Shown: piece by piece, positions 463-47,200 of the stretch
Position numbering within the stretch: position 1 is the first letter of the stretch
Layout: every line of letters starts with the position of its first letter
Assembly (NCBI GenBank): GCA_951812925.1
Contig: OX638368.1
Coordinates: 77,792,909-77,856,908, forward strand
Source of the DNA: Calliopum simillimum
Lineage: Eukaryota > Arthropoda > Insecta > Diptera > Lauxaniidae
Length of the DNA: 64,000 bases
Direction: 5' to 3'
Position numbers and translations under genes: made by a program
The notes under the pieces: generated by a model
The model's input: the letters and a program-made list of their open reading frames with translations, nothing else
Database searches by the model: none
What the model was told of the DNA's origin: nothing

Positions 463-2511
463 TTTAGACAAACATAAAGATCAAATAATTGTGACAACAG
501 CAGATAAAGGTAACAAAACGGTCATGATGTACAAGGAAGAATATGAAAACAATATGAAAAAATTACTTGAAGACAAAAACACGTATAAAACCATACGAAT
601 AGATCCGTCACAAAAACTAGAAAGAACAAACAACGATATCGTCAATCACTTATACAAAAAAGAATACATAGATAAACGGACCAAATTCAACTTATCCTGC
701 TCAACAGGCAGTGCCCCGAAGTTATATGGCTTACCCAAGATTAAAAAGCCCGACATGCCACTACGTCCAATTTCATCGTCTGTGAATGTCCCTTGCTACA
801 AATTAGCAAAACATGTAGGTGAAATACTTAAACACATAAAGGGGATACCTTTAATCTCGTAAACTCGTAAACCATGAAAAACTCGAAAGTTTACGAGCTT
901 GTTTTCAGGAACACACATTTCTAAAAACGTGTAAGTAACGTATCAGCTGTCATATAATTTGAAAAATATTCAATTCAAATTCAATTTTCAAAACAAAAAT
1001 ATTTTTTCAATACATTTATTTGACAACAATCGCTCTCGTATTTTTTCGAGGCTATTTACGCATCGAATTTGCCTCGAAAGTTTACGAGGCCTGGTAAACT
1101 TTTTTTTCATACAAATTTTTAAATTTTGATTACGAGATTCGAAAGTTTTCGAGGTTTACGTGCTTTTCGAGGCTTTTACGAGTTTAAAGGAATCCCCTTA
1201 TAGTATCATCGGATATTAACATCAAAAACACGCTTGAACTTCAAAACAAGATTGAAAATACAACATTGGACACAAATGACAGACTTTTTTCCTTTGACGC
1301 GGTGTCGTTATTTACAAATATACCAACAACATTAGCAATAAGGATTATAATGAATCAATGGACGACGATTGAAAAACACACCAAAATTCCTAAAAGCAAT
1401 TTTTTAAAAATCTTAACTTTTTGTCTAAAAGACAACAACTATTTCCAATATAAAAATAAAATATACAACCAAACGTTTGGAATGCCAATGGGTAACCCCC
1501 TTTCACCCACTATAGCCGATATTGTACTAGATGACCTGATTAAATGTGCAATATTAGATTTAGAAAAATAGGCATTAAGATAAAATTTCTTGTAAAATAC
1601 GTTGACGACATTTTCACCATTATAGATAAAAATAACTTGACCATGATACTTTCAGCTTTTAATAAATACCACAGCAAATTGCAATTTACCGTCGAAGAGG
1701 AAATCAACAACACGCTACCCTATTTAAATACAACAATACACAGGATACAAAACACAATAACATTTAACTGGTACACAAAACCAACAGCATCCGGCAGAAT
1801 TATAAATTTCAATTCAACACAGCCATACAATCAAAAAAGAAACACAGCAAACAACATGATAAAAACCGCACTAACAATAAGCCACACAAATTTTCAAAAA
1901 CAAAACATAGAAAAACTCAAGAAAATTCTACACAAAAACAACTACCCACCAAAATTAAAAAACCATCTTATAAATAAAAATCTCAGAAATATACAAAATC
2001 CTCAACCGAACTTAAGAAACAATGATACTGCTGGTCACCCTAAACAATATTTCATATGTACCAAGACTTACAGATGACACAACAGTAAAAAACATTAGGA
2101 AAGAGAACGCAGCATTTGCATACAAAGCAAACAAAACACTTACATCGATATTTACCAACAACAAAGATAAAACAGAGAAATTAAAAGAGAACAACGTCGT
2201 TTACGAAATAAAATGCAAGGGAAAAGTGCAATGCGATCTACATAGGGACAACAAAACGAGCTTTCGGCATAAGACTAAACGAACACAAAGCAGACGCAAA
2301 ACACAAAAGAGAGACCACAGCTTTAGTTAAACATTTAACAGCAACTCAACACACAGCTGATTTCGAAAATTCGAAAATATTAGACAGAGAACAGAGATAT
2401 AATGTTAGAATGACGTTGGAGAGCCTTAGAATAAGGCAAAATGCAAAAACAGCTGTGAACGATAGGGAGGACTATAATAATATTAGTCAGTGTTATAGTG
2501 TGATCTTGTAA
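463..2511 (+). pseudogene. PLE reverse transcriptase / GIY-YIG endonuclease, broken
   Basis: Known role of the family: target-primed reverse transcription of the element's own RNA after nicking by the GIY-YIG domain. Seen here: an N-terminal RT block with 'YGLPKIKKP' and 'PLRPISS' (about 720-775), 'LFSFDAVSLFTNIP' (1285-1326) with the first catalytic Asp, 'TFGMPMGNPLSP' (about 1470-1508) and the catalytic 'YVDD' (about 1600). Near the C terminus are 'VVYEIKC' and 'YIGTT' of the GIY-YIG nuclease, with stop at 2509-2511. The reading is broken by the MITE at 839-1200 and by frameshifts near 1550-1570, 2020-2075 and 2230. Not expected to be functional. Confidence 0.85.
839..1200. mobile_element. 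Palindromic MITE inserted in the PLE reverse transcriptase (TSD TA)
   Basis: A 362-bp non-coding insert with terminal inverted repeats (left AAGGGGATACCTTTAA, right inverse AAGGGGATTCCTTTAA). Its interior is rich in short inverted motifs such as 'ctcgtaaa', 'tttacgag' and 'tttcgagg'. The dinucleotide TA flanks it at 837-838 and 1201-1202. Removing the insert and one TA joins the RT reading frame exactly, so the boundaries are well supported. TA duplication fits Tc1/mariner-type MITEs, but the TIR is not one I recognise. Confidence 0.8.
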
Positions 2512-31421: not shown

Positions 31422-32198
31422 TTTCCACAAAATGAAAATGAATGGATGGCTGTTGGAAACGATTTTGATGAGATGTGGAATTTTCCTAATTGCATAGGTG
31501 CTATTGATGGGAAGCATATCAACATAATAAAGCCAAAAGATTCGGGTGCATATTATTTTAATTATAAGAAAACGTATAGTATTGTACTGATGGCGCTCGT
31601 TAATGCAAACTATGAATTTTTAATGGTTGATGTAGGCGCCAATGGCAGAGTTTCTGATGGCGGAGTGTTCTCAAATACAGAACTTAGTCGTAGACTTAAA
31701 GACGGCAAACTCCATATTCCCGAGCCAAGACAAATTGGAGATTACAAACATAAGTTACCGTATGTTTTTGTAGCAGACGACGCATTTCCTTTGAGCGAAA
31801 ACATTATGAAACCCTACAGCTATACTGGATTGAGCGGGGATCAGGAGAATTTCAATTACCGCCTATCACGCGCGAGAAGAATGGTCGAAAATGTGTTTGG
31901 AATTATTGCATCCCGTTTTCGCATTTTACTTACGACAATAAATTTAAGCCCTGCTAAAACAACCACAGTAGTCTTGGCAATTTGTTACCTACATAATTTT
32001 TTAAGAAAAAGAACTTCAAATTATATTCGCAGCACCGAAATTCCACAAAGCAACAGAAATATTTCAGAACACGCATCAAGAAATCCACCCGGCAGAACCA
32101 ATAATTCTACTAATATTGCAAAAGAGACTCGAAACAACTTTTGCGAATATTTTAATACTTGCGGATCGCTTGAAAGGCACACAAACTCAGAAGAATAA
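31422..32198 (+). CDS. Harbinger A transposase, exon 2 (catalytic)
   Basis: Acceptor TTTCAG at 31416-31421 and stop TAA at 32196-32198. It carries the whole DDE domain: 'FPNCIGAIDGKHINI' (first D), 'YVFVADDAFPL' (second D) and 'ARRMVENVFGIIASRFR' (E). It ends with 'VVLAICYLHNFLR', typical of the family, and a polar tail. With exon 1 the protein is 403 residues and unbroken, so the transposase could be functional although the MADF partner is frameshifted. Three histone-like stem-loops follow the stop within 20 bp. Confidence 0.9.
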   Translation, partial: FPQNENEWMAVGNDFDEMWNFPNCIGAIDGKHINIIKPKDSGAYYFNYKKTYSIVLMALVNANYEFLMVDVGANGRVSDGGVFSNTELSRRLKDGKLHIPEPRQIGDYKHKLPYVFVADDAFPLSENIMKPYSYTGLSGDQENFNYRLSRARRMVENVFGIIASRFRILLTTINLSPAKTTTVVLAICYLHNFLRKRTSNYIRSTEIPQSNRNISEHASRNPPGRTNNSTNIAKETRNNFCEYFNTCGSLERHTNSEE

Positions 32199-32215
32199 AT
32201 TAATAAATTTGAATT

Positions 32216-32301
32216 GGTCCTTTTAAGGGCCAGAGCACCAGTCAACAATTGGCCCTTTTCAGGGCCAGAGCACCAGTCAACAAACGGCCCTTTTCAGGGC
32301 C
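32216..32301 (+). promoter_or_regulatory. Three tandem histone-type 3' stem-loops after the transposase stop
   Basis: GGTCCTTTTAAGGGCC (32216-32231), GGCCCTTTTCAGGGCC (32251-32266) and GGCCCTTTTCAGGGCC (32286-32301) recur with a 35-bp period. Copies 2 and 3 are exact matches to the metazoan replication-dependent histone mRNA 3' hairpin (six-pair stem, TTTC-type loop). Copy 3 even has the usual flanks CAAAC before and ACCA after. Copies 1 and 2 are each followed by 'agagcaccagtcaac'. In histone mRNAs this hairpin binds SLBP and replaces the poly(A) tail. AATAAA at 32194 overlaps the stop region. Use by the transposon is inference. Confidence 0.75.
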
Positions 32302-32557
32302 ACCATTTCAACTTAACAAAAAGATTAAAATTATTTTATGTACCAGCCGTCACAACATAAACTATAACCTTAGCAGATTCCACTCCGTCTAGGTTCACAA
32401 AAATTTTATCAAAAGGTAAAATTGTCATTTTCAAAATGATATGGTATGCTCCAGCAGTAAGTTATGCAACAACAGCGATATCGCTTACAGCTTTCCCTAA
32501 CAGTTTCTATTAAAATGTATGGTATTAAAACGGCAATTATAGTGTCATTTAAGGCTT
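32302..32557. other. Harbinger A sequence, no gene
   Basis: Non-coding DNA between the stem-loops and the nested TIR element. Confidence 0.5.
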
Positions 32558-40647: not shown

Positions 40648-42248
40648 ATGGGGGACGCGGCGTCGCCCTTAACAAATGCCGAACTTTTTGAAAACTTTTG
40701 TGTAGCTAATGGGTATTTTCCTTTAGACTCAACAAAGAGGAAAAGCTCTTTAACAATGGACAATAATAAAAAACCAAATGTGTGCGATTCCTCCATTGTT
40801 CCGATGGTGCAGGAGCCTCTTCCTCCACCGAACTATCATTTTTCACAAGATAATGTAGATGTTTTTAGTATGGGCTTGTCCATGGAGCGAGTTGCTCAAA
40901 ATTCTCCTCAGCCTCCAATTATTACTCCCTTTCAAAATAATGAAAAAGATAATAGTTCTTTTGCGTCCACTTCTAATCAAGATTTAGCTCAATCATCTAT
41001 TTCCTCTTTGCATAATAATACAAATATTCCATTTATTCCACCTAATCAAGATAATACTAAGTCTTCTTCGCCAACCAGTACAATTAAAATAAAAGCAAAT
41101 TACCCTGATAACCATGAGGGCGATTTCTTTGTCCTTTTGGATGCGAGCAGAGCCTCTCAATCCAATAAATTTTTAAATGAACTTTTTCTTTTTGAAAAAA
41201 TAAAACTCTAATTAAAGCTATCGGCAGATCTTTATTTAGACTTAAATTTGATTCAGCTGTTAATGCTAATTTCTTTGTTAATCTTAATCTGTCTAGTGTA
41301 GGATTAAATGCTTTTATCCCTGACTCGTTTATTTTTAATTATGGTGTTATCAAAAACATCCCTTTGGAACTTTCCGATGAGTTCATTTTTAAAAACATCA
41401 TCTCTGAAATTCCTTTGATTAATGTTAGTCGTTTTTTGAGGAAAACTTCTGAGGGCACCTTATCCCCTACCTATTCTGTCAAACTTGCTTTCAATTCCAA
41501 AGTTATCCCTAATAACATTAAACTGAATTACTCAGTCATTCCAGTCGATATTTTTTTTATGCCGGTAAGGCAATGTAAAAACTGTGGTCGTCTTGGCCAT
41601 TCTGCTATGTCTTGCAGATCGAAAAAACGATGCATGAAGTGCGGCTCAGATAGTTGCCCAGGGGATTGCACCATTTCTAAATGTGTGTTGTGCAATAATA
41701 CAGATCACTCTGCTTCTGACAAAAACTCTTGTCCAAAATGGATCTCTGAAACTGAAATTTCCAAAATTATGTCGATTAAGAAAATTTCCCGTAAAGAAGT
41801 CATTACTAATTATCCTGTCAATAGATTCGACTTATTGAAAGATTACGACAAGGAGTTTCCTGAAATGAAATCATCTGCCAAAGTTAAAAATCCTGACTTC
41901 GAAATTAACAAAATTTTAACAAAAAATAAGACTAAGTTTAGCAAAATTCTGCAACCACCCAGACCTACTGTAATTAAATCCAATTTTCAAACTGGAGAAC
42001 AAATTAATATTGTTCCTTCCAAGCCTGTTTACTTCCACAGTAGTTTCCAAAAGGTCTCAGAATTTGAAAAACTTATAAAAGAAATGACAAAATTTGTTAC
42101 CGATATCTTTAATAAAGATAACAACGAATCCTGCTTATCTGCTATTAATCATTTTTCAAAAAGAATTAATAACTTCTTTTTAGACTTTGACAGTGCCTAT
42201 ATATCAAACAATTCTAGTACTTCGAACCCTAATAGTGAAAAAGTATAA
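40648..42248 (+). pseudogene. LINE ORF1 (Gag-like, CCHC zinc knuckles), one frameshift
   Basis: ATG at 40648. The N-terminal half is Ser/Pro/Asn-rich and probably disordered. The frame shifts within the A-run at about 41196-41206 and then continues to 42248 through a conserved Gag-like fold and three Cys/His motifs ('CKNCGRLGHSAMSC', 'CMKCGSDSCPGDC', 'CVLCNNTDHSASDKNSC'). ORF1 proteins of this kind bind the element RNA and form the RNP. The stop TAA (42246-42248) overlaps the ORF2 ATG by one base (TAATG), suggesting termination-reinitiation. Confidence 0.85.
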
Positions 42249-45200
42249 TGCAAATTTTACAGTATAATTGTCAAAGCTTTAAATCCAATGAGAACAAAAT
42301 CGAATTCTATATCAATAATTACAACATTGATGTATGTATTCTGTCCGAAATTTTTTCAATTGATGACAATGATCCTAATCTTAAACTTCTAAATTTCAAC
42401 ATTTTACACAAAATCCGCCCTGATGGATATGGAGGTGTAGCTATCTGTTTTAATAAATCCATTTCGTTCAAAAAAATTCCTTATTCCTCGAATTTTGATA
42501 TTATCATTGCCTCTACACTTAATCTTCATCCAAATTTTACTTTAGTGTCTGTCTACTTTCCTCCTAACCTCTCTCAAACAAATTTTAATTTGGAAATCAA
42601 CAGGCTTCTTAACTTTATTGCCCCTTTACCTAACACTATTCTTGCTGGTGACTTTAATGCTCGTCTATGTCTCTGGGGTGATTATGTGGATTCTCCGAGA
42701 GGAAAATCCCTTTTTGACTCTGTGAATAAATCAAATTTTGTGTGTCTTAACAATGGCAATTTTACCTTCAAACAAAACATTCAAAGTTCTAGAGCCTCGG
42801 TTCTTGATCTTTCTTTCTCTAATTGTCATTTCAATATCATTTGGGAGACTTGCCCTTTTTGGCTCAAAGGCAGTCATCATTTTCCTATCATCCTTACCTT
42901 TGACAATGTTAAAACTTCTCCTAACAAGTTTATTTCTAAAAAGAAACTTTTTTCAGATCTAAACAATTTGGTTCTTAGTCCTGATCTTAATTCTATTCAA
43001 TCTGAAATTTCATCTTCTATTGACAAAGCTACCATTATTGTTAAAAAATCTAATTTTTCTCAATTTTGGTGGAATGACAAACTCTCCAAACTTTTTCGTT
43101 TAATGGTAGCTGCTAGGAAAAAAGCCACCAAATTTCCTTCTACAATTAATCTTCATTCTTATGCCATTTCGCTTAAAAACTGGAATTTAGAGGTTAAAAA
43201 TGCCAAATCTATCTCGTTTAAACAGAAGATAAATGAACTTAATGGTTCCCCTCAAACCAAGTCTGCATGGAGATTTGTAAACAGTTTAAAAGGTTCTTCA
43301 ATTCCTTTTTCCAAATGGAATTCAGATAATAACTTATTGTATCTTCAACTTCTTAAAAATCATGTTCCTTTAAGCTCATCCTTTGTTTTTTCAAAATTAC
43401 CCTTTTCCAATACGGACTCTTTTTTTTCTTTTGATGATCTTTCTAATGTTTTACTTAATAAAAAACAATCTTCTTCTGGAGGTTTAGACAGAATCACGTA
43501 CTCTATGCTAAAAGCTCTTTCAGTTGATGCTAAAAAATCCCTCCTCAAAGCTTTTAATTGTAATTTTTCCAAATGCTTAATTGAAGATTCTTGGAGATTA
43601 ATCAAAATTGTACCTATTCCTAAAAAGTCTTGTGATCTTGATGACTACAGGAATTTTCGTCCTATTGCACTTATCTCTGTTCTAGTCAAAACTATAAATC
43701 TGATGGTTAAAGAAAAACTTACTTCCTTCATTCAAACTAATAATATTCTTCCTATGCGCACTTTTGCTTATCGAAAGCATTTTTCTTCTTCTATGTGCAT
43801 TAATGAAATTCTTCACAGAGTTGCATATCTCAAATCTAATAAGTTTAATGTTGTTATGTGTACTATAGACATTAGTAAAGCATATGATTGCGTCAACATT
43901 TCTATCCTCTTAAAGATTCTTAAATCTTACAATATTGACACTAATATTACAAATTGGACAATAAATTTTCTACACAAAAGGACCCTATGTCTTGGAAGTG
44001 AGAGAATTACTGTTGCTAATGGTCTTCCTCAAGGCAGCTGCCTTAGTCCCATACTATTCAATCTGTACACTGCTTCTCTTCACTCTATTGAAGACTCCAA
44101 CACTCTCCTTTTTCAATTTGCAGATGACTTCGTCATTCTTTCTTTTGCGAAAAGTTTTGATCTTGCTGTCAAAAACCTCGCTATTAAAATTTCAAAATTT
44201 TATAGTTCTTGTAAGGCTAAAAATCTCTCCTTTAATATTGATAAAACTAAATCACTTTATTTTGCTAAAGGAAGTAGGAAACAAATAAAATTAATTTTCA
44301 ATAATCATAATATTCAGCAAGTTGCATCTTTCAAATTTCTTGGTAGGTACATCTCTGATAGTCTTTCCGTTTCTGAACATTATGCTAAGATTATTAAAGA
44401 TTCCTACAAAGCCTCTAATCTTCTCAAGATGCTTTCTACCATCAAAGGTGGTTTAGATCCCAAAATTAGTCTTTATATTATAGAAGCTTTTAAAGAAGTA
44501 AAATTGAATATGCTCGAACTTCATCAGCTCATGGTCCTCAATCCATCAATAAAAAAATTTGCACTTTTCAAAATTCTGCACTTAGGAGATGCCTTGGTCT
44601 GACTCCATCAACTCCAGTTCAAATTATTTATGCTCTTGCTAATGAATTTCCTCCCCATCTGCGAGCCATTTTACTCACTGCCAAGGAAATTATCAAAATT
44701 TCACTCTTCAACCCTTCGCTTTTTAAGCTTATTTCCGAAACTATAGCTAATTTCAGTTACAGTTTCGTCTTCCAAAAATTTCAATCAATTTTTTGCCATC
44801 TCGTCAAACCTTTTTCACCCACTCTGATCTCTAAAAAATCTAAGGTCTTAATTGATAAATTTGCTAACAAAAAACAGGACACTCCTAACGAGATTTTCAA
44901 AACTTTCTTCGCTGAAAAACTTCACACTTACATCTCTGAAAAATTTTCCGTTTTTGCGACTGATGCTTCTATTTCTGGCAATCTGACTGGGGTTGCAGTC
45001 TTCAATATTACGTGTAACCAATTTTTTCTCTTTAGAATTAATTTCAAATTATCTTCCTTATCTGGTGAATTGTGTGCAATTAAAAAAGCTATCGAAATTG
45101 CAATTGAGGATAATTTGGAAAATATCGCGATTTTTACAGACAGTTTGAATGCTTGCATTCTTCTTAAAAAAGACTATTCTGAAAATTTTCTTGTTTTAGA

Positions 45201-45519
45201 AATTATGAATCTCATTGAAAACTCCTCTATTAAAAATATTCACTTTATCTGGGTTCCCAGCCATGTTGGTATCTCATTTAATGAGAATGTTGATTATATG
45301 GCTAAAGCTGCTGTTAACAATGGCGCGCCCCTTAGACTAAGACTATCTGCTAAAGATGCTATATCTTCTATTGCTAATTCTTTATGGATTGAATGGAATG
45401 CTGATTTCATTAATGTCTCAAGGACTAAGGGAAAATTTTTTCACAACATTTTCCCTAATATCACAACTAAACCGTGGTATCATCGAGCTGTTCTTGATCC
45501 ACAGGACTTAAAAACTATA
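42248..45519 (+). pseudogene. LINE ORF2 (APE, reverse transcriptase, RNase H), frameshifted and interrupted
   Basis: Starts at the overlapping ATG. The endonuclease domain (about residues 1-220) shows 'LQYNCQSFKSNENKIEF', 'ILSEIFS', 'GDFNARLCLWGD' and 'KGSHHFPI'. The RT follows with 'IVPIPKKSCD', 'FRPIALISV', 'IDISKAYDCVN', 'NGLPQGSCLSP' and the catalytic 'FADD' (about 44120). A frameshift lies near 44500. In the new frame come 'NSALRRCLGLTPSTP' and an RNase H with 'ATDASISG', 'GELCAIKKAIEIA', 'IFTDSLNACILL' and 'FIWVPSHVGI'. At 45519 the coding sequence is split by HHR array 2 and resumes at 47201. Confidence 0.9.
45504..45519. repeat. Target-site duplication, left (HHR array 2)
   Basis: GGACTTAAAAACTATA, repeated exactly at 47185-47200. 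The final TATA is shared with the unit sequence ('aaaattata|ctaatt'), giving microhomology at the element's 3' junction. Confidence 0.9.
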
Positions 45520-45631
45520 CTAATTTTATGAACTTTAGTCAATGTTTTGCAAGAATCGAAAATTCCATGCATTTTCCAACTTAGAATATTATGACAATTA
45601 GGAGAAGAGAAAAAACTACTGAACATGGCTA

Positions 45632-45677
45632 TGGTGACATATGTTTCGGTTACCGCCACGTAACCATCATCAGACCA
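45632..45677 (-). ncRNA. Hammerhead ribozyme, array 2 copy 1
   Basis: Minus strand: stem I TGGT, CTGATGA, one extra T, stem II GGTTAC/GTAACC with a short GTGGCG loop, GAAA, self-complementary ACATATGT for stem III, cleavage triplet GTC, and stem I ACCA. The extra base between the core and stem II matches the position of the extra A in the PLE ribozyme at 2693. The palindromic stem III predicts dimeric activity between neighbouring or paired transcripts. Confidence 0.85.
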
Positions 45678-45747
45678 ATTTATGTTTTATTTAATTTATT
45701 TTAAATTAAATGAAATAACAATTGAAAAATTTTTGAACTTTTTGTCT

Positions 45748-45827
45748 GAGGCCGGGATCGATCTATGAACCTTTCGAAATCAATCTCTCTACATAGCGCA
45801 TTTATCAACGGACTGCGCTGTGTGCCC
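45748..45827 (-). ncRNA. tRNA-like sequence, array 2 copy 1
   Basis: Minus strand: 'CAGCGCAGTCCGTTGATAAA' then 'TGCGC' gives a D-arm-like hairpin (GCGC/GCGC) over an A-box-like motif. 'AGATCGATCCCGGCC' about 50 bp later resembles a B box. It lies upstream of the ribozyme on the same strand, as expected for an internal Pol III promoter. Not a functional tRNA by its stems. Confidence 0.6.
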
Positions 45828-46161
45828 TCGGAAAAATTGGTAGCTTAAGTGCCTATATGCATGTAGCGTGGTTTCATTCTCTATACTCCTTTGTCATCAT
45901 TCATGTTGTGTTTGTTTGGTAAGGCTCAGCCATTGGCTGAGAATCAATACCGTTACATTATATGACTGACAAGTGTTGCCAGTTGCACATATTTGGCGTG
46001 TTCTCCATTATTACTTAAAATGGTTTATGTTGACTATATGAAAATTATACTAATTTTATGAACTTTAGTCAATGTTTTGCAAGAATCGAAAATTCCATGC
46101 ATTTTCCAACTTAGAATATTATGACAATTAGGAGAAGAGAAAAAACTACTGAACATGGCTA

Positions 46162-46207
46162 TGGTGACATATGTTTCGGTTACCGCCACGTAACCATCAT
46201 CAGACCA
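46162..46207 (-). ncRNA. Hammerhead ribozyme, array 2 copy 2
   Basis: Identical in sequence to copy 1, 530 bp away. Confidence 0.85.
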
Positions 46208-46277
46208 ATTTATGTTTTATTTAATTTATTTTAAATTAAATGAAATAACAATTGAAAAATTTTTGAACTTTTTGTCT

Positions 46278-46357
46278 GAGGCCGGGATCGATCTATGAAC
46301 CTTTCGAAATCAATCTCTCTACATAGCGCATTTATCAACGGACTGCGCTGTGTGCCC
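46278..46357 (-). ncRNA. tRNA-like sequence, array 2 copy 2
   Basis: Same sequence as copy 1, offset by 530 bp. Confidence 0.6.
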
Positions 46358-46691
46358 TCGGAAAAATTGGTAGCTTAAGTGCCTATATGCATGTAGCGTG
46401 GTTTCATTCTCTATACTCCTTTGTCATCATTCATGTTGTGTTTGTTTGGTAAGGCTCAGCCATTGGCTGAGAATCAATACCGTTATATTATATGACTGAC
46501 AAGTGTTGCCAGTTGCACATATTTGGCGTGTTCTCCATTTTTACTTAAAATGGTTTATGTTGACTATATGAAAATTATACTAATTTTATGAACTTTAGTC
46601 AATGTTTTGCAAGAATCGAAAATTCCATGCATTTTCCAACTTAGAATATTATGACAATTAGGAGAAGAGAAAAAACTACTGAACATGGCTA

Positions 46692-46737
46692 TGGTGACAT
46701 ATGTTTCGGTTACCGCCACGTAACCATCATCAGACCA
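46692..46737 (-). ncRNA. Hammerhead ribozyme, array 2 copy 3
   Basis: Identical to copies 1 and 2. Confidence 0.85.
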
Positions 46738-46807
46738 ATTTATGTTTTATTTAATTTATTTTAAATTAAATGAAATAACAATTGAAAAATTTTTGAACTT
46801 TTTGTCT

Positions 46808-46887
46808 GAGGCCGGGATCGATCTATGAACCTTTCGAAATCAATCTCTCTACATAGCGCATTTATCAACGGACTGCGCTGTGTGCCC
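46808..46887 (-). ncRNA. tRNA-like sequence, array 2 copy 3
   Basis: Same sequence as copy 1, offset by 1060 bp. Confidence 0.6.
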
Positions 46888-47078
46888 TCGGAAAAATTGG
46901 TAGCTTAAGTGCCTATATGCATGTAGCGTGGTTTCATTCTCTATACTCCTTTGTCATCATTCATGTTGTGTTTGTTTGGTAAGGCTCAACCATTGGCTGA
47001 GAATCAATACCGTTATATTATATGACTGACAAGTGTTGCCAGTTGCACATATTTGGCGTGTTCTCCATTATTACTTAT

Positions 47079-47184
47079 CATAATATTCTAAGTTGGAAAA
47101 TGCATGGAATTTTCGATTCTTGCAAAACATTGACTAAAGTTCATAAAATTAGTATAATTTTCATATAGTCAACATAAACCATTC
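47079..47184 (+). repeat. Inverted 5' end of HHR array 2
   Basis: 'cataatattctaagttgg' through 'gtcaacataaaccatt' is the reverse complement of the part of the unit that runs from just before the start of a unit to about 45595 in the first copy. It abuts direct-orientation sequence at about 47078. Consistent with a 5' inversion formed during target-primed reverse transcription. Confidence 0.85.
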
Positions 47185-47200
47185 GGACTTAAAAACTATA
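47185..47200. repeat. Target-site duplication, right (HHR array 2)
   Basis: GGACTTAAAAACTATA. Also part of the LINE ORF2 coding sequence. Confidence 0.9.

Follow-up and report, generated by a model that had tools for sequence, protein, structure and literature searches.

An inserted element of 1,665 bp, located within a LINE in the window (the whole stretch of 64,000 nucleotides analyzed here), is most likely a non-autonomous, non-coding retrozyme copy with a 530-nt unit and a minus-strand hammerhead, moved in trans by a Penelope-like element (PLE). For the more specific reading, in which a dimeric PLE enzyme would have used one ribozyme-made circle for rolling-circle reverse transcription from both target ends, with each end starting at its own hairpin and the two hairpins lying 30 nt apart, we put the chances at about even.

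Structure of the inserted element and its host LINE

The element lies between perfect 16-bp repeats (Table 1), and joining its flanks in silico with one repeat copy gave a single open frame to the end of the LINE. Both results bear out an earlier reading of this DNA, made from the sequence only, which had described a perfect duplication and an insertion inside a LINE whose frame is restored upon removal. The host LINE carries endonuclease and RT within the frame 42248-44602, and RNase H in the frame from 45070 scored 25.6 bits, slightly under the Pfam cut-off of 25.8.

Units are numbered u1-u530 from the predicted hammerhead cleavage point, along the minus strand. The tandem period of the array is 530 bp, as the sequence-only reading had it, and the unit has 34% GC; the three whole units that it proposed did not hold up, as the long half is composed of a u149-530 piece, two complete units and a 3' partial unit. 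By alignment this half amounts to 2.96 units and runs to u125, with u117-125 overlapping the flanking repeat. Also overlooked, where the array had been taken for direct units only, was a 112-bp piece at its right end, which is an inverted copy of u36-147 of the 530-bp unit. The corresponding inverted repeat was detected with arms at 46019-46141 and 47061-47183, and base 47184 is one extra C with no match to the unit. This inverted half points to the PLE type of two-ended target-primed reverse transcription as the route of insertion. The longest ORF in the 530-nt unit is 40 aa, and no ORF for an RT or a GIY-YIG endonuclease was found in the unit, which has none above that length. The element is not a PLE and was only moved like one.

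Table 1. Features of the inserted element; u, position in the 530-nt unit
Feature	Positions	Strand	Remarks
Left target-site duplication GGACTTAAAAACTATA (16 bp)	45504..45519		exact match to 47185-47200
Whole inserted element, two head-to-head arrays	45520..47184		
Long half: u149-530, two complete units, then partial unit to A-type end u116	45520..47077	-	
Hammerhead core 3	45636..45673	-	motif
B hairpin u143-161, one copy shown	46005..46023	-	circular fold, pair probability 0.89-0.99
A hairpin u109-125, one copy shown	46041..46057	-	circular fold, pair probability 0.57-0.74
Hammerhead core 2	46166..46203	-	motif
Region ~u355-418, taken as the tRNA-like part of the sequence-only reading; degenerate	46278..46341	-	no box pair
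Hammerhead core 1, predicted cleavage between 46696 and 46695	46696..46733	-	motif; compensatory changes
Short inverted half u36-147, ending at B-type site u147	47072..47183	+	
Right target-site duplication (16 bp)	47185..47200		exact match to 45504-45519

Paired ends and target duplications across the family

A family search of the source genome (690 Mb, 334 contigs) in which 40 of 1365 first-look candidates were scored, yielded at least 267 matches, a copy number that is a lower bound. Twenty-five loci were examined, comprising the window, 20 others and four (L047-L050) added after the pattern described below had been noticed; they were drawn from the best matches to a long query, and short or old copies are under-represented. 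When copies were listed with their flanks, as the sequence-only reading had proposed, target duplications of 13-16 bp were found at 21 of the 25 loci. Its claim that the multimer inserted as one unit by retroposition is supported and holds for 20 of the 25, which are two-ended with 13-16-bp duplications. Duplication lengths in 19 loci were 13 bp (five loci), 14 bp (eight), 15 bp (four) and 16 bp (two), and L016 adds another of 13 bp. As a control, junctions of different loci were compared and matched by at least 13 bp in 2 of 300 draws. The duplications are 85% A+T compared with 72% for the flanks, with AAT or ATT common at one side, and the flanks differ among the 19 loci compared.

The outer ends of all 20 two-ended loci consist of one A end (u105-120, mode 119) and one B end (u146-151, mode 149), with positions counted after removal of the duplication and uncertain by 0-8 bases of microhomology, and with the L016 ends assigned by eye. 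If ends were independent and equally frequent, the chance of one A and one B end in each of 19 loci would be 1.9e-6. All four loci fetched after the pattern was noted fit this rule, with the L047 end, where an extra base causes 7 mismatches with the unit, read by eye. The inner ends, at the 5'-to-5' junction of the two halves, occur at scattered unit positions. Among the other loci, L012 has a duplication and one B end with no inverted half, L014 and L024 each have one B end with neither duplication nor inverted half, and L013 (B end) and L021 (A end) are interrupted by assembly gaps. Gaps of 200 N were observed in or beside the arrays of L016, L013, L021, L023 and L027, which suggests that head-to-head arrays are difficult to assemble and that their count may be too low.

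The commonest ends of both types fall at two adjacent hairpins in the predicted circular fold of the unit (z-score -4.0 against 30 shuffles). The commonest A end, u119, is the base after the loop of the A hairpin, and the commonest B end, u149, is the base before the loop of the B hairpin. Pol III termination at T-runs was considered as a cause of the two end types and rejected, since the unit contains longer T-runs at which transcripts would already have ended.

Sequence variants among units

In order to characterize the template, variants were called per unit in the 25 loci (154 pieces), with 18-base edges trimmed and the L016 piece beyond a nested insert excluded. At sites covered by at least three units per locus, 61 variants were confined to one unit, 25 were carried by all units and 9 had frequencies in between. 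The 25 all-unit variants compare with a mean of 0.05 and a maximum of 2 in 1000 shuffles of units among loci. Thirteen of them are private to one locus, and the 12 common to several loci may mark subfamilies. Of 99 crossings from one unit to the next (21 loci), 93 have a junction that is exact over 30 nt. Fifteen variants could be compared between halves (at least two units, sites covered in both halves), and 12 of these are present in both halves, including 11 in every unit of both, from 9 loci. From these sequences we infer, as the simplest reading, that one circular monomer per insertion was copied repeatedly from both cut ends. Homogenization after insertion is a less likely source of the all-unit variants, because the duplications are intact and singletons outnumber intermediates.

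Divergence is 0.22% for units within a half, 0.39% for the halves of one locus and 0.68% between loci. Of 19 comparable loci, 9 have a short half that is closer to at least one other locus than to its own partner, most of all L018 (23 of 24) and L047 (20 of 24), in a comparison where short pieces carry few sites. This disagreement makes the circle readings slightly less probable and a linear or two-molecule template slightly more so. The nine intermediate-frequency variants (four in L018, three in L019 and one each in L015 and L027) suggest, for the most part, unit duplication after insertion. A dimeric circle was considered for L018, whose units alternate in markers, and was rejected in favor of later unit duplication because the terminal piece carries neither marker. 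In L018, L019 and L015, groups of units in one array share variants that are absent from the other units.

The predicted hammerhead ribozyme and a second family

Three hammerhead-like cores were found by motif in the window, compared to none in 50 mononucleotide shuffles of it. Their layout consists of the core CTGATGA, stem II, GAAA, the palindrome CATATG and TC, with stem I open. The sequence-only reading had placed a hammerhead on the same strand of each unit and expected all three to score with Rfam covariance models. The three minus-strand cores stand, and the covariance score does not: Rfam hammerhead models gave no match on the window at the gathering score or at E<=10, leaving no motif with a significant score, which is the outcome that reading had itself named as contrary evidence. 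Rfam hammerhead models expect a longer stem III. What supports the putative hammerhead is instead a set of compensatory changes relative to a second family, in which the core and the loop GTGGCG are kept and 5 of 10 stem pairs are changed on both sides. All 40 of 40 stem-pair cells are paired, and none is broken, in this two-family alignment of four rows, three of them from one family. The second family itself scored 22.7 bits with Rfam (E 0.033), below the cut-off of 48.5. As stem III is the palindrome CAUAUG, the hammerhead probably works as a dimer, an action reported for short-stem hammerheads of PLEs in the sections available of a published account (PMC7761336).

The second family was found at L016 5929-6434 (minus strand), nested in a family-1 array, and has 132 matches genome-wide from 40 scored of 1583 candidates, with tandem and inverted copies. 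The two families have the stretch u1-u110 in common. It also bears on the tRNA-like promoter boxes that had been described for the window element. These boxes could not be demonstrated in family 1, where no Pol III A/B-box pair with up to two mismatches each was found in the unit, and are present in the related second family, with one mismatch in each box (P 0.001, 2000 mononucleotide shuffles). The region at ~u355-418 in family 1 sits roughly where the second family carries its boxes. ARAGORN at default settings called no tRNA in the window unit or the second family, and the many low-score calls obtained with very loose settings were dismissed as noise. A two-ended copy of the second family (L051) has, read by eye, seemingly one end of each type and a near-perfect 12-bp duplication with one mismatch. 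No A/B hairpins were seen by eye in the second family, and the hairpins are claimed for family 1 only.

Penelope-like elements in the source genome

Likely PLEs are marked by 51 GIY-YIG matches in the source genome. Two of these loci, L042 and L043, share 99.5% identity across 2882 bp and an 841-aa frame, with RT and GIY-YIG identified by Pfam in L042. Duplications were observed for the L043 copy (14 bp) and for L045 (13 bp), and the two ends of L043, of which one is direct and the other inverted, are separated by ~31 nt (by eye, +/-4). No boundary duplication of at least 9 bp was found for L042 or L046; a 13-bp repeat at L042 position 866 was rejected as spurious, as it lies inside another repeat. 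The PLE insertion-mode features, namely paired ends a tail length apart, head-to-head inversion and a duplication, are present in all 20 two-ended family loci, and the element thus appears to move like a PLE, although we do not claim that it is one.

Using a relaxed motif, a minimal hammerhead with the same layout as that of the unit was found in 10 of 18 PLE loci (9 of 15 distinct places), and a stricter motif found none in 10 PLE loci. A search for a partner PLE by DNA similarity yielded no convincing match beyond the hammerhead in 8 loci and 10 shorter loci of the 51 GIY-YIG places. One PLE protein of the source genome has 474 matches; among the 120 listed, those with names come from flies and mosquitoes, with identities of 56% for Lucilia and 49% for Drosophila virilis and Musca, which makes a fly the very probable host. 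In the PLE family of L045 and L046, the inverted end seems to lie ~70 nt past the direct end, which would make the tail of this family longer than that of L043 (31 nt). A Penelope-like RT remnant with a KYVDDIF motif was also observed in the window at 1544-2077 (plus strand), 42% identical over 132 aa to the L042 PLE, and had no Pfam match at 0.001.

Proposed mechanism and alternative explanations

In the preferred reading, tandem transcripts would be cut by the predicted hammerhead, probably as a dimer, and the monomer would be closed into a circle by a host ligase. The RT/GIY-YIG endonuclease of a PLE would make a staggered cut in AT-rich DNA, as the insertion signature suggests, and reverse transcription would start inside the RNA ~119 and ~149 nt past the cleavage point, with one site per cut end; it is the insertion signature that points to two adjacent start sites. 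The cDNA of each end would then circle the same RNA zero to several times and stop at random, a repeated copying of one circle that is suggested by the haplotypes, and the two cDNAs would be joined 5' to 5'. The end product is the insertions flanked by 13-16-bp duplications. At a later step, some arrays may have changed their unit number through duplication.

A PLE might also have copied a linear tandem transcript of a donor array, or two RNAs might have served the two ends, and we consider this unlikely while giving it more weight than the explanations that dispense with a PLE. PLEs have tandem transcripts, and their insertion in vitro proceeds without need for hammerhead cleavage, as far as the sections available of the published work describe it (PMC11167929). 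Intermediate-frequency variants at 4 of 25 loci and the nearness of another locus to the short half, clearest in L018 among the 9 of 19 comparable loci, also favor such a template. However, the all-unit variants, over half of which occur at a single locus only, call for a bottleneck of one monomer, and linear copying would transmit the unit-to-unit differences of the donor, whereas only 4 single-unit variants recur in another locus compared to 52 that are private (21 loci).

Ordinary LINE machinery (L1/Jockey-type) with twin priming is improbable as the mover. It yields inversions, LINEs are present, including the host LINE in the window, and the duplication length taken alone is compatible with it. 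In twin priming, the second primer lands internally, at variable RNA positions, whereas the outer ends here have fixed positions in all 20 loci, with each type present once, and lie 30 nt apart, like those of the local PLE L043; no poly-A or repeat tail is common to the locus ends compared. A satellite expanded in place, or an insertion at the DNA level through an extrachromosomal circle or a foldback transposon, is very improbable, even though arrays of up to ~8 units (L009, L010) and inverted ends are reminiscent of satellites or foldback elements. The target duplications, seen at 21 of 25 loci and with flanks that differ in the 19 compared, fixed outer ends together with scattered inner head-to-head ends (a pattern of reverse transcription) and restoration of the LINE frame upon removal all speak against it, and expansion in place was rejected on the many genomic places and the target duplications.

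Relation to known elements

Comparisons with published systems draw on those sections of the sources that were available. Like metazoan non-LTR retrozymes, the 530-nt element is a small, non-coding, AT-rich tandem repeat with a type I-like hammerhead, occurs as dimers to long multimers and in more than one family per genome, and has target duplications longer than those of plant retrozymes (PMC7229834, PMC7761336). Its unit of 530 nt exceeds the ~170-400 nt of published metazoan retrozymes, and its short palindromic stem III resembles that of PLE and amphibian hammerheads more closely than that of the hammerheads in other invertebrate retrozymes (PMC7229834, PMC7761336). The life cycle inferred here is the one already proposed for metazoan retrozymes, in which reverse transcription of a circle gives tandem cDNA and PLEs are strong candidates (PMC7229834, PMC7761336). 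Retrozyme repeats are described as showing no motif that reveals their autonomous mover, unlike the paired end signature reported here, which points to one (PMC7761336). Plant LTR retrozymes share the hammerhead and a circular RNA as presumed template, and differ from family 1 in having type III hammerheads, LTRs, a tRNA-primer site and 4-bp duplications (PMC7229834, PMC7761336). The Sm-alpha repeat of Schistosoma, which has been called SINE-like, is likewise a short repeat with a type I hammerhead; family 1 differs in having no demonstrable tRNA-like promoter, which the second family has, and the sections available on Sm-alpha contain no mention of a paired-end head-to-head insertion structure (PMC8490949).

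For an Anolis PLE, two adjacent start sites of reverse transcription within the RNA are reported, with the sequence from one to the other forming a genomic tail of 30-40 bp; the target is AT-rich DNA, of which each strand is cut and extended (PMC11167929). Rotifer PLEs have direct and inverted pseudo-LTRs, one with an optional 31-bp tail, and duplications, and for one of them mobilization of an unrelated gene in trans via pseudo-LTRs has been reported, together with the empty site (PMC3846280). The family described here resembles PLEs in its direct and inverted head-to-head copies, 5' truncation, duplications, 30-40-bp tail on one end and hammerhead upstream of the ends (PMC11167929, PMC3846280). 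It differs in that the unit is repeated many times and lacks an RT, an endonuclease and any ORF above 40 aa, and in that the tail, optional in rotifer PLEs, is found on exactly one end in 20 of 20 two-ended copies (PMC3846280).

Hammerheads in PLE pseudo-LTRs and in non-LTR retrozymes of many animals, insects included, have already been published (PMC7229834, PMC7761336), as have animal hammerhead retrozymes with PLEs as a possible engine and a circular-template model (PMC7229834, PMC7761336, PMC8969392, PMC11722881). The novelty assigned to this element at first sight was therefore overstated, since insect retrozymes and PLE hammerheads are in print; of insertion-level evidence for the enzyme or a circular template, no published example was found in the sections available of the open-access literature. 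How animal retrozymes move is treated as an open question in the available portions of published accounts (PMC7229834, PMC7761336). Paired A/B ends together with the all-or-one pattern of variants provide a read-out at the genomic level, open to testing wherever a genome contains retrozymes. They also speak to the reason why PLEs have two start sites, for in each of the 20 two-ended insertions here both were employed once, which would fit a separate site for each cut end. Should the reading of a dimeric enzyme on a single circle be true, PLEs would be identified as what drives animal retrozymes, and two-ended rolling-circle target-primed reverse transcription would be demonstrated. A fly with many young copies offers a tractable system for the circles, the start hairpins and the dependence on PLEs.

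Other features of the window

A histone 3' stem-loop was observed at 32281-32326 (plus strand; Rfam 38.6 bits), overlapping its own 35-bp tandem repeat at 32212-32302. This stem-loop repeat is directly preceded by an ORF at 31446-32198 that appears transposase-like by eye.
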